Positions 1,821-7,782 of a stretch of 29,509 nt of DNA are shown here, in pieces; position 1 is the first letter of the stretch; every line of letters begins with the position of its first letter. The DNA is taken from the IMG/VR virus record IMGVR_UViG_3300002180_000050, positions 1 to 29,509 of that record. One strand, 5' to 3'. Below the pieces are notes generated by a model that did not search any database, had not been told where the DNA came from, and worked only from the letters and a program-made list of their open reading frames with translations. The DNA is from a virus. The position numbers were made by a program, and so were the translations under genes.

Positions 1821-2396
1821 CTATAGATTTTCCCAGTGTTGCCGCCAGTTTGTGTCGCCCCAATTGTCCTTGCCGACATTACAATCACTGCATAGGACTT
1901 GCAGATTATCTAAATCAAGCTCCAGTCTAGGGTGTTTTGACCTTGGGTAAATATGGTCTACATGAATCTGAACACCATCGCTCGCGGTTGCGCCACAACA
2001 CTGGCAAGCACCCCCGCAATTAACCAGGGCTTGATACCTAAGCGTCTTCCATGCCTTTGAATTATAAAATTCTGGGTCTTTTTTAATGAATGGTGTTTTA
2101 TTAGGCTTCTTATTTAGTTTTGTGAACTTCCTAAGAACTGCCTTGACCTGATCTACAGACTCGCATTGATCCCATCCTGTTTTATTGCAAATTAATATCG
2201 CAAGCATGATGTTATCAGTGGCTTCTGGCTTTCGGTTGAAGTAGTTAAGCGCAAAATCTCTATGACTTACGCTATGCGGCCCTTTAGCCTTGCGCCGTTT
2301 TTTAACCCTCTTGTTTTTTACTTTCTTTGGCCATACTTGTTTCTTCTTTGGCTTATTATCGTCTTGTTTCCAAAACCCACTTAGATCATTACCCAT
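1821..2396 (-). CDS. HNH endonuclease (191 aa)
   Basis: The C-terminal half carries an HNH module. A zinc knuckle CQCC (residues 131-134) and CSDC (169-172) surround the HVDHIYP motif (145-151, with D147 and H148) and the conserved asparagine of DNLQVLC (N164). The N-terminal 40 residues are very lysine-rich and suit DNA binding. It is the first gene after a nearly 400-base leader in the minus-strand replication-side operon. HNH enzymes in phages act in homing or in packaging; terminase is 26 kb away, so a homing-type or replication-linked role is more likely. The start at 2396 follows AAGGATTAATC. Confidence 0.85.
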   Translation of the reverse strand: MGNDLSGFWKQDDNKPKKKQVWPKKVKNKRVKKRRKAKGPHSVSHRDFALNYFNRKPEATDNIMLAILICNKTGWDQCESVDQVKAVLRKFTKLNKKPNKTPFIKKDPEFYNSKAWKTLRYQALVNCGGACQCCGATASDGVQIHVDHIYPRSKHPRLELDLDNLQVLCSDCNVGKDNWGDTNWRQHWENL

Positions 2397-2677: not shown

Positions 2678-2690
2678 CTATCGTCGATAG
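2678..2690. promoter_or_regulatory. Perfect 13-base palindrome, candidate operator
   Basis: CTATCG-T-CGATAG is a perfect inverted repeat ending five bases before the -35 hexamer of the plus-strand promoter at 2696. The placement is typical of a regulator site. Which protein would bind is unknown; the XRE repressor and the HTH proteins in this window are candidates. Confidence 0.4.
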
Positions 2691-2695
2691 CGGGT

Positions 2696-2723
2696 TTGTA
2701 GAAGGCATTGGATGTGTTACGAT
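2696..2723 (+). promoter_or_regulatory. Plus-strand promoter for a candidate antisense RNA
   Basis: TTGTAG (2696-2701) and TACGAT (2718-2723) are 16 bases apart. Transcription would begin near 2730 and reach the terminator at 2764-2795 without crossing any gene. The hexamers are moderate matches, so this is a prediction. Confidence 0.4.
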
Positions 2724-2728
2724 ACAGA

Positions 2729-2796
2729 CCTGTTAGAAGCTTCCCGCTAAGAACTCTTCTAACAAAGCCCCGGTTTCTTGCTGGGGCTTTTCTTTG
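2729..2796 (+). ncRNA. Candidate OOP-like antisense RNA with two hairpins
   Basis: A transcript of about 65 bases would hold two abutting hairpins. The first is GTTAGAAG/CTTCTAAC (2732-2739 with 2756-2763); the second is the terminator AAAGCCCC/GGGGCTTT. The RNA is fully complementary to the first bases of the leftward transcript that starts near 2794. Lambda OOP has a similar arrangement: a short RNA opposite to the replication-side operon and ending at its own terminator. Read from the other strand, the same two hairpins at the 5' end of the leader resemble HK022 put elements, so an antitermination role is the main alternative. Confidence 0.4.
2764..2795 (+). terminator. Rho-independent terminator, plus strand
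   Basis: An eight-pair stem AAAGCCCC (2764-2771) and GGGGCTTT (2783-2790) is followed by TCTTT. The T-rich tail is on the plus strand only. The adjoining genes are all on the minus strand, so this terminator needs a plus-strand transcript of its own. Confidence 0.75.
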
Positions 2797-2800
2797 TCCG

Positions 2801-2828
2801 ATTATAATCTATACGCGAGCATTATCAA
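2801..2828 (-). promoter_or_regulatory. Strong minus-strand promoter of the HNH-replication operon
   Basis: Read on the minus strand, TTGATA (2823-2828) and a perfect TATAAT (2801-2806) are separated by 16 bases. Transcription would start near 2794 and give a leader of about 400 bases before the HNH start at 2396. The -35 lies on the stop end of the methylase-like gene. Confidence 0.6.
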
Positions 2829-3469
2829 CATTCAATTGGTGAATGCGGATTGCTGTGGTATTTATTTGGTGAATACAGAGCCAGTTTTACAAGGGCATCC
2901 CTGAATAATACAGGAGTGGCGTTGGCTTCTTTTTTCCCAAGAGTGGGCTTGTTTTTAGCTTTGCCACGCTGATCTTGAAACCCTATCTGGTGTGTTCCTT
3001 TTGGCCTATCTTGTATTAATTCAAAAGGCTTTGATGCGCCCTTGTAATACAGCCATGTGGCTTTGTTTGCCCTGTGGCCGTATGCCGATTGCCAAACCTC
3101 GCAAACCCAGCCAGCACCACTTTCTTGCCATCCTTTGCCAACTGGCTTAATCAACCCATGAGTAGCCCATGCTCGAGTTTTTGCAGGATGCTCTAACACA
3201 CCGCCGCACCTATTTACCGCCGCGAGCGCCGACTCAAAACACCCTTGGTCATTACCTGGCTTGTTATGTTCGCCTCCCCACCGCGAATAATTGACAGCCG
3301 CTAGAGCGCCCCATAGCTGGCATGGTGGATGCGCAACAACCGGCAATACTCCGGTATATTTCCTTGCGTCCCTTTCTTCGTCCCATAGGTCTACATTTTG
3401 CAGGCTTGAATAACACCCGTCGGATTGGGCGTATAATACAGCGATAGTTTGGTTTTGCGGCGTGTTCAT
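2825..3469 (-). CDS. Phage protein with cytosine-C5-methylase-like motifs (214 aa)
   Basis: The motifs in order are AHPPCQLWG (residues 46-54), GCF near 76-78, VLEHP (91-95), WVCEVWQSAYGH (121-132) and KATWLY (136-141). They recall motif IV (PC) and motif VI (EN-type) of C5 methyltransferases, in a family common in phages but uncharacterised to my knowledge. No clear SAM-binding motif I (FxGxG) is seen, so methylation is not assured; a related base-modifying or DNA-protecting role is inference. The start is ATG 3469 with GAGG seven bases upstream, preferred over an upstream in-frame GTG at 3481. The gene has its own promoter and a structured leader. Confidence 0.65.
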   Translation of the reverse strand: MNTPQNQTIAVLYAQSDGCYSSLQNVDLWDEERDARKYTGVLPVVAHPPCQLWGALAAVNYSRWGGEHNKPGNDQGCFESALAAVNRCGGVLEHPAKTRAWATHGLIKPVGKGWQESGAGWVCEVWQSAYGHRANKATWLYYKGASKPFELIQDRPKGTHQIGFQDQRGKAKNKPTLGKKEANATPVLFRDALVKLALYSPNKYHSNPHSPIEC

Positions 3470-3502
3470 CTGTAACCTCACAATTATTGGTTATCAATCG
3501 AG

Positions 3503-3562
3503 AATACGCGGCAACAAGTGATTGAGGCTTGCTTTCGGGTTCGATGCCCTAGCCGCGTTATT
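3503..3562 (-). ncRNA. Structured leader with tRNA-like or three-way-junction fold
   Basis: ACGCGGC (3506-3512) pairs perfectly with GCCGCGT (3552-3558). Inside are two arms: CAAG/CTTG with a nine-base loop, and GGG/CCC enclosing a seven-base loop. Read on the plus strand, the second arm has the GGGTTCGA look of a tRNA T-arm next to an acceptor-like stem, but only about 22 bases lie between, too few for both D and anticodon arms. Read on the minus strand, it forms the first bases of the transcript of the methylase-like gene, which suits a regulatory leader. Confidence 0.4.
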
Positions 3563-3563
3563 T

Positions 3564-3592
3564 ATTGTAAATCGTGATAATGCTTTATTCAA
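3564..3592 (-). promoter_or_regulatory. Minus-strand promoter of the methylase-like gene
   Basis: TTGAAT (3587-3592) and TACAAT (3564-3569) on the minus strand are 17 bases apart. The start would be near 3557, the first base of the folded leader. A terminator lies directly upstream, so the gene below is probably transcribed on its own. Confidence 0.55.
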
Positions 3593-3597
3593 GGCGT

Positions 3598-3629
3598 AAA
3601 AAAAGCCATCAACGCTAGAAGATGACTTT
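3598..3629 (-). terminator. Rho-independent terminator, minus strand
   Basis: On the minus strand AAAGTCATC and GATGGCTTT pair (3602-3610 with 3621-3629, one G-U) around a ten-base loop and are followed by a run of T (3598-3604 as A on the plus strand). It closes the candidate small RNA that starts near 3699 and backs up the terminator at 3745. Confidence 0.65.
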
Positions 3630-3700
3630 TAATACCGGCCTCGCAAAGACCGAGCTGATGTGACTACTTGCAACTACCCTAAGCTTATCCAGAACTTAGA
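3598..3700 (-). ncRNA. Candidate small RNA of about 100 bases
   Basis: A minus-strand extended -10 promoter (TGGTATAAT) is followed by about 100 bases without an open frame. The segment contains small hairpins (CTAAG/CTTAG; CTCG/CGAG around 3640-3655) and ends at a terminator with seven T. The unit is isolated between two terminators, which is the usual layout of an independent small RNA gene. No known RNA family is recognised. Confidence 0.35.
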
Positions 3701-3705
3701 ATTCA

Positions 3706-3714
3706 ATTATACCA
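3706..3714 (-). promoter_or_regulatory. Extended -10 promoter, minus strand
   Basis: TG-N-TATAAT on the minus strand (TATAAT at 3706-3711, TG at 3713-3714). There is no recognisable -35 at the proper distance, so it would rely on the extended -10 element. Confidence 0.45.
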
Positions 3715-3744
3715 TATACATCTGCTGTTTTTTCTATCGCCCAC

Positions 3745-3772
3745 AAAAAAAGCCACACCGGAGAAATGTGGC
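3745..3772 (-). terminator. Rho-independent terminator of the repressor-side operon
   Basis: GCCACA (3752-3757) and TGTGGC (3767-3772) form a stem followed, on the minus strand, by seven T (3745-3751). It is the first terminator after the last gene of the leftward accessory operon that begins with the repressor. Confidence 0.75.
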
Positions 3773-3780
3773 CTTTAATG

Positions 3781-3906
3781 CTGGGAGGGAAGGCCCAGAA
3801 GGGAATGCACTGTGAATGCCAAGCGATTATATTCCGCATTCACTGCAACTGTAAAGGATTACTTGATAGTTGAACTATCCGGAGTTTCCGGTAGGTTGGA
3901 ATACCG
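3781..3906 (-). other. Run of short hairpins in the 3' untranslated region
   Basis: Successive inverted repeats are visible: CTGGG/CCCAG (3781-3798), GTGAATGC/GCATTCAC (3812-3843), GATAGTT/AACTATC with a one-base loop (3865-3879), CCGGA/TCCGG (3879-3891) and CGGTA/TACCG (3889-3906). The last three share bases and would compete. The stretch carries no protein gene and lies between the last gene of the accessory operon and its terminator. It may stabilise the mRNA or be a processed RNA. Confidence 0.4.
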
Positions 3907-3955
3907 CCCCGTCAGTTTGAGGATGCAAGCATAGCCTTGGCGGGTATTGCTGGGG

Positions 3956-6976: not shown

Positions 6977-7173
6977 GACTCGCCCTTCTTGATAAACGCG
7001 CTAGCCTTCACCCCGAACACATTAGCCAGCTTTAATATCGTGTCGCTGTTGCAGCTCCCACGCCGCAGCATAGTTGATACCGCAGCCGGTGAAATACCAA
7101 GATGCTCGGCTAATTGCTCTTGATTCCAGCCCTTTTTCTTCATGTAAATTTTAGTTGATTTTGTTATATCCAT
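6973..7173 (-). CDS. XRE-family repressor, helix-turn-helix only (66 aa)
   Basis: Residues 15-62 form a complete HTH_3 domain: WNQEQLAEHLGISPAAVSTM is the helix-turn-helix, followed by NSDTILKLANVFGV. It lacks the C-terminal LexA/CI peptidase domain, so it cannot be inactivated by RecA in the way lambda CI is; it is more like Cro or a small immunity repressor. It heads the leftward accessory operon, opposite the plus-strand early operon. ATG 7173 is preceded by GCGAGG. Confidence 0.8.
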   Translation of the reverse strand: MDITKSTKIYMKKKGWNQEQLAEHLGISPAAVSTMLRRGSCNSDTILKLANVFGVKASAFIKKGES

Positions 7174-7287: not shown

Positions 7288-7782
7288 ATGATAAATATAT
7301 CTGAAATAGTAAAAGACTGGCCTGTAGTGGATGGGTGGAGTGTCAGCACTGGCGTCTCATGGTGCGCCAAAGGCTTTAGATTGAAGGTTGGCATAAACTG
7401 TTATATCAGCGACCGGGCTCATGTTGGCGACCGGGCTCATGTTGGCGAAGGGGCTAGTGTTGGCGAAGGGGCTCATGTTGGCGACCGGGCTCATGTTGGC
7501 GGCTGGGCTCATGTTGGCGAAGGGGCTCATGTTGGCGAAGGGGCTAGTGTTGGCGAAGGGGCTAGTGTTGTTTGTAATATTGGCTATGCAGACGGCTACG
7601 GCAAGGCGCTTTGCTCTTTTGAAGGGGTCGCATACATTGGGGCTGGATGCCAGTGGTTAACTCTGGATGATGCTATAGAGCATTGGTCTAATCACGACGA
7701 AGATAGAAGCATGACTCTATGTCTGATGGAATCGGCCAAAGCGATAGCCAAGCTGAAAGGGCTAAAAACTGGAGCATCATGA
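7288..7782 (+). CDS. Left-handed beta-helix (hexapeptide repeat) early protein (164 aa)
   Basis: First gene of the rightward early operon. ATG 7288 follows AACGGAGAAGAAAGC and is preferred over an in-frame GTG at 7252, which lies upstream of the predicted transcription start. The centre (about residues 41-94) is nine hexapeptides of the type V-G-D/E-R/G-A-H/S, which match the left-handed beta-helix rule. They would form three turns of a prism. The N-terminal 40 residues and the C-terminal 70 (VAYIGAGCQWLTLDDAIEHW and beyond) flank it. The helix alone does not show enzyme activity; structural, binding or DNA-mimic roles are all possible. Confidence 0.75.
   Translation: MINISEIVKDWPVVDGWSVSTGVSWCAKGFRLKVGINCYISDRAHVGDRAHVGEGASVGEGAHVGDRAHVGGWAHVGEGAHVGEGASVGEGASVVCNIGYADGYGKALCSFEGVAYIGAGCQWLTLDDAIEHWSNHDEDRSMTLCLMESAKAIAKLKGLKTGAS
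7408..7569 (+). repeat. Nine tandem 18-base repeats inside the beta-helix gene
   Basis: Units such as GGCGACCGGGCTCATGTT and GGCGAAGGGGCTAGTGTT follow each other without a gap and preserve frame. Only codons 2, 3 and 5 of the unit vary, and variants are shuffled among positions. This suggests unit duplication and recombination, so the copy number may differ between relatives. Confidence 0.9.

Follow-up and report, generated by a model that had tools for sequence, protein, structure and literature searches.

Plasmid countertranscripts such as ColE1 RNA I, IncFII CopA and pT181 RNA I are antisense RNAs complementary along their whole length to a leader's 5' region, and in plasmid copy control their promoters are usually stronger than the sense promoters. 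Among phages, OOP and its promoter pO occur in lambda and in other lambdoid phages as well. According to PMC3985674, pR transcription into the replication region of lambda is reduced by the convergent pO promoter, which also influences the initiation of replication, and oop RNA works on cII mRNA via RNase III; PMC5869508 places the 5' end of OOP at base 38,675 and gives OOP a LexA site. The put RNAs of phage HK022, as defined in PMC9378689, are two stem-loops of ~70 nt just downstream of an early promoter. They act in factor-free antitermination through the beta' zinc-binding domain.

The locus compared here with these systems lies in a virus record of 29,509 bases (the window, i.e., the whole stretch of DNA that was analysed), which is identical to positions 14,443-43,951 of IMGVR_UViG_3300027852_000071 (43,959 bases). 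Identity was 100% across the 9,274 bases compared, with both start and end matched, and the longer contig is therefore the same virus and not a relative. Its genes mark it as a tailed phage (portal, large terminase, protease-capsid fusion and exonuclease, along with a Mor-like activator and a Cro/CI-like HTH protein), and relatives of its terminase are found in Caldimonas, Marinobacter, Rosenbergiella, Methylobacter and two metagenome-assembled genomes. Based on lists of open reading frames and not on a gene finder, the minus strand carries all likely genes from the left part of the contig to window position 7173, which agrees with the earlier note that all flanking genes are on this strand. 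Positions 7415-7570 consist of 8.3 tandem copies of an 18-bp coding repeat, with a super-period of 54 bp, and lie within a plus-strand reading frame in which a six-residue motif recurs (e.g., GDRAHV or GEGAHV).

At the site under study, a gene of unknown function (phrog_12600, E 5.2e-63) at 2825-3481 on the minus strand is followed by a gap at 2397-2824, where all three minus frames are interrupted, and then by an HNH endonuclease gene at 1821-2396 (minus; Pfam PF01844, E 6.9e-12; phrog_144). The gap is non-coding. Its earlier description as the leader of an HNH-replication operon is not exact: the leader contains a terminator-like hairpin of its own (2475-2450), and from the start of the HNH gene it is another ~2 kb downstream to the replication initiator.

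Promoters were scored at 58,946 window positions with a sigma70 base-frequency matrix entered by hand. The top score in the window (13.53, rank 1 of 58,946) belongs to the minus promoter TTGATA-16-TATAAT at 2801-2828, which matches 11 of 12 consensus bases, has its -35 overlapped by the stop codon of the phrog_12600 gene, and has a predicted start at ~2794; the claim of a strong minus promoter therefore stands. Facing it at 2696-2723 on the plus strand is the candidate TTGTAG-16-TACGAT, with a moderate score of 7.15 (rank 158 of 58,946), a -35 at 2696-2701, a -10 at 2718-2723 that is extended by a TG at 2715-2716, and a predicted RNA start at ~2730. Just upstream of the plus -35, the palindrome CTATCGTCGATAG (2678-2690), the sole copy in the window, could serve as an operator. 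A LexA-like box, ATGTGTTACGATACAG, at 2712-2727 overlaps the plus -10 and has one mismatch to CTGT-N8-ACAG, which falls on a strongly conserved base of the LexA site. One-mismatch boxes occur in the window at chance frequency (12 observed, 9.8 expected), and on this count the box was not taken as significant.

From the plus promoter candidate to its U-tract, a small RNA of ~68 nt is predicted at 2730-2797, comprising a 5' hairpin and an intrinsic terminator. The first hairpin (2731-2764) has nine perfect pairs and a 16-nt loop, with CTAAGAACTC in the loop region; the terminator hairpin (2764-2790) has 11 pairs and a T-rich tail to ~2797. The two directly abut, as had been reported, with A2764 common to both. 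No other intrinsic-terminator candidate in the window, whichever the strand, is as strong as the second hairpin in the plus sense (-17.9 kcal/mol); in the minus sense this hairpin is reduced to 8 pairs and -11.6 kcal/mol, and the U-tract and two G-U pairs belong to the plus RNA only. The earlier observation of the promoters, hairpins and plus-strand terminator is confirmed. The earlier note had the plus RNA at 65 bases, exactly covering the 5' end of the minus leader; the overlap is indeed ~65 nt, but the predicted length is ~68 nt and the RNA spans the minus start at ~2794. Our reading of this arrangement, to which we assign a probability of about one half and which we consider the most likely, is that the plus RNA would be a negative cis-acting antisense device on the early operon, in the manner of lambda pO/OOP.

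How often such an arrangement arises by chance was estimated from 98 dinucleotide shuffles of the whole 43.95-kb contig. Hairpins as strong as 2764-2790 occurred 0.15 times per shuffled contig; when a promoter at least as good was also required at 45-200 nt, the figure was 0.06. The real contig has 10 plus and 14 minus terminator candidates at -10 kcal/mol or better, of which one plus (RNA 2730-2797) and four minus candidates have a promoter scoring at least 7 at the right distance. Under these thresholds, the promoter at 2696-2723 and the terminator at 2764-2790 thus form the sole plus unit in the contig, and all but one of the four minus units lie inside long reading frames. A promoter at least as good would fall within 3 nt of the spot that starts an RNA at the hairpin foot with a chance of ~2% (7 x 158/58,946). 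The plus-strand RNA is probably real, judging from the 0.06 units per shuffle together with the short non-coding gap and the perfect hairpin at the RNA start.

It is unlikely, in our estimation, that the plus terminator is a mere roadblock against antisense transcription into the strong minus promoter, with no discrete regulatory RNA. The terminator ends at 2797, just before the minus -10 at 2801, it is strong while the plus promoter is moderate, and such terminators are common in bacterial genomes. However, there is no plus-strand gene upstream that needs a terminator, and the roadblock explanation leaves aside the perfect 9-bp hairpin abutting the terminator and the promoter at the right distance.

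The antisense reading finds a close parallel in lambda OOP, in which a 5' hairpin, one base and then a terminator hairpin follow one another much as the two hairpins abut in the candidate. Both are short, intrinsically terminated RNAs (in the present case predicted from the sequence) directed against an early operon near replication genes, and they are of similar size and stability: 68 nt and -27.5 kcal/mol for the candidate, and 77 nt and -28.5 kcal/mol for OOP. Their loops, CTAAGAACTC in the candidate and CTCAGAACTC in lambda OOP, are alike at 9 of 10 bases. This match is reached by 0.7% of loop shuffles and by 7% of 2000 whole-RNA shuffles, and in view of the latter we claim no kinship. There is likewise no DNA match between the candidate and any phage record, and an RNA model of the plus RNA (R1, built from one distinct sequence) gives lambda oop 10.6 bits (E 0.13). 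Unlike lambda OOP, the candidate does not lie opposite the 3' end of cII, the upstream gene that ends at 2825 being phrog_12600 and not CII; it covers the 5' end of a leader, and it lies before an HNH gene and not just before the start of O. Hence, of the proposal of an OOP-like antisense RNA, the terminator strand, promoter position, two-hairpin shape and placement opposite an early operon hold up, while cII, gene overlap and a significant sequence match are absent. The likeness to OOP is well supported as one of anatomy, but the element is not an OOP homologue.

Searches for other relatives were negative as well. No Rfam family reaches its gathering cut-off in the window, and the best sub-threshold matches at 2730-2797, Yfr10 (26.5 of 43 bits) and suhB/MmgR (15.7 of 41), score far under the cut-offs and reflect general shape only (a hairpin, a short linker and a terminator). 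At the DNA level, no homologue was found in the phage records, and the exact hairpin pattern is absent from genome_contigs and present in viral_contigs only in the parent contig. R1 gave a best other match of 20.0 bits among 84 sources holding 79 non-self loci, and matched 2 of 39 virus or phage records (37 of them from 50 non-self loci), namely itself and one record at 11.6 bits. Matches were also returned in four of five genomes (from seven loci) at E ≤ 1, with a best score of 27.8 bits, and in 14 of 81 genomes from the genus of one relative's host at E ≤ 1e-5, with a best score of 33.5 bits. Alignments were read for ten of the matches; all lie on the terminator and none has the full 9-bp first stem, and for this reason they were rejected as homologues. 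As far as alignments were read, R1 matches away from this locus share only a common terminator. With the replication protein as a guide, two more loci were located in viral contigs, and the protein was present in 2 of 38 records; two of the three sources concerned were searched with R1, in their loci or records, and neither gave a convincing match. An antisense terminator within ~125 nt behind phrog_12600 genes was present at only 2 of 48 other loci, in weaker form, so the linkage is not conserved. The element is without a homologue in the phages, virus contigs and bacterial genomes searched.

On the opposite strand, the RNA from the minus promoter (2397-2794) is either the non-coding leader of the HNH gene, with all frames interrupted, or a separate non-coding RNA of ~350 nt; the fold of 2440-2794 has a z of -2.60 in the minus and -3.14 in the plus sense. 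Within it, a terminator- or attenuator-like hairpin at 2475-2450 (-12.3 kcal/mol), lengthened by flanking pairs and followed by a U-rich tail to 2440, stands ~54 nt before the HNH start. The presence of this second terminator-like hairpin in the minus RNA means that the leader may be a self-terminating RNA of ~350 nt, or that the hairpin may act as an attenuator. A 12-nt perfect direct repeat, TATGCTCTCTGG, at 2409-2420 and 2487-2498 flanks the long hairpin before the HNH gene; in the minus sense AAGG closely follows both copies, and the second AAGG is part of the likely HNH ribosome-binding site. Iterons were searched for near the hairpin site and none are there.

These features bring the locus close to plasmid countertranscripts: the promoters face each other, the antisense RNA (start 2730, plus) would be complementary over its whole length to the first part of a leader (start ~2794, minus) upstream of replication functions, and the downstream terminator-like hairpin could act as an attenuator. 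Unlike in those systems, the sense promoter looks the stronger of the two, folding reveals no switch, and there is no sign that the leader acts as a primer or in initiator control. When the first 67 nt of the leader were blocked in silico, the probability of the 2475-2450 stem was 0.97 either way and the unpaired probability of the HNH start region moved only from 0.68 to 0.60, in a calculation that covers the folding of the leader alone. A leader switch operated by blocked 5' hairpins is therefore without folding support. Pairing of TAGCGGG at 2688 with CCCGCTA at 2743 within the leader has a probability of 0.0 in a fold without pseudoknots. That a plasmid-style countertranscript controls the replication operon, with the 68-nt RNA set against a self-attenuating leader of ~350 nt within a group of at least four self-promoted phage non-coding RNAs, is a proposal we hold only tentatively and regard as improbable.

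The best promoter in the window also puts the same two hairpins right at the beginning of the minus RNA, and they could function there, as a 5' cap against 5'-dependent decay or a regulatory element of the leader, with the plus signals as by-products of palindromy. The fold of 2730-2797 is significant in both senses (z -4.75 plus and -4.19 minus, with 0 of 200 shuffles as stable in each case), and the first hairpin is more stable in the minus than in the plus sense (-12.7 vs -8.8 kcal/mol). Given these opposite preferences, the terminator argues for the plus strand while the first hairpin does not. The much weaker second hairpin in the minus sense and the plus-specific T-tract speak against a role in the minus RNA, which we consider quite unlikely.

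A more specific role for the minus hairpins had also been suggested, that of a put-like leader. As an antitermination RNA, it would allow read-through of the 2475-2450 terminator and beyond. As in putL and putR of HK022 (PMC9378689), two adjacent stem-loops of ~70 nt lie just past a strong early-type promoter, and a terminator-like hairpin is present further down in the leader. HK022 putL and putR were located via their mutual inverted similarity, the same putL sequence being annotated as putL in HK75, and combined into a covariance model (R2), which gave the annotated putL-like RNA of HK639, used as a positive control, 43.7 bits. Unfiltered, R2 has no minus match at 2731-2797; its best score in 2380-2850 is 2.8 bits, on the plus strand and away from the hairpins, and a plus match of 0 bits covers the terminator. 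The motifs invariant between putL and putR (GTCGGG, AGGATGA and CAATG) are absent from the hairpins, and the terminator sense is on the opposite strand. Homology to put is rejected on the failure of R2 at the hairpins, despite their position near a promoter, and put-type antitermination is extremely improbable.

Turning again to the cis-acting antisense device, a stable, intrinsically terminated RNA of ~68 nt would be made from its own promoter against the leftward early operon. As seen in the sequence, the minus-promoter RNA has its 5' end fully matched by the complement in this RNA, and the same would hold for any early transcript that reads through the site. Transcription into the HNH and replication genes would be lowered or timed by the convergent transcription and by pairing of the two RNAs, with cleavage by RNase III as the probable next step. 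This proposal is consistent with the position of the strongest terminator in the window opposite the strand of all flanking genes and with a promoter placed so that the RNA starts at the hairpin foot. Counting against it are the moderate plus promoter, much weaker than the minus promoter, the fact that the plus RNA overlaps no gene and no ribosome-binding site, and the 0.06 promoter-terminator units per shuffled contig, a score that alone is not overwhelming.

The standalone shape of a hairpin and a terminator would also suit an RNA acting in trans on host or phage messages, with the loop CUUCCCGCUAAGAACUC as a seed and the position opposite the leader being incidental. Loop pairing with the start regions of the phage itself gives no encouragement: none of 66 was paired better than by shuffled loops (78% of 500 shuffles as good), and trans targets of the loop among these phage regions were rejected. 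More favourable is the fourth minus promoter-terminator unit (3819-3742), the only one outside coding sequence, which resembles the trans-acting MmgR/suhB family and whose terminator aligns weakly with that of the plus RNA (16.6 bits). Taken together, we consider action in trans doubtful.

This MmgR/suhB-like unit belongs to the next gap (3482-3955), which has a similar look, with several RNA-like units on the minus strand; the two Rfam matches that follow are both under the curators' cut-offs. The MmgR/suhB-like RNA (RF00519; 3811-3736, 36.8 bits, gathering 41, E 2.9e-4 for the window) has a promoter TTTACA-18-TATAAT at 3855-3826 (rank 3 of 58,946), a terminator at 3775-3749, and a fold z of -4.19 in the minus vs -0.05 in the plus sense. 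Directly upstream of the phrog_12600 gene, an int-alpA-like RNA (RF02996; 3559-3492, minus, 31.1 bits, gathering 35.8, E 0.0078) has a 5' end at the predicted start of TTGAAT-17-TACAAT (rank 4 of 58,946); a paper search under the int-alpA name found nothing. Between them, a third terminated unit (3698-3596, minus, fold z -1.67), a hairpin and then seven T, is a possible small RNA behind the extended -10 TGGTATAAT at 3713-3706 (rank 11). A weak abiF RNA-like match lies at 3907-3944 (minus, 18.8 bits, gathering 37, E 1.2), and the abiF cut-off is reached at one phrog_12600 neighbour (L009, 2077-2139, 37.5 bits).

Four of the eleven best promoters in the window stand before RNA-like units flanking the phrog_12600 gene, which suggests a cluster of small non-coding RNAs beside this gene. 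If the plus RNA is expressed, face-to-face antisense control at the entrance to phage replication, as known from lambda, would recur in an unrelated phage with an unrelated sequence, and this early operon, given the cluster of promoter-terminator RNAs around it, would offer a compact setting in which to seek RNA regulation in phages.
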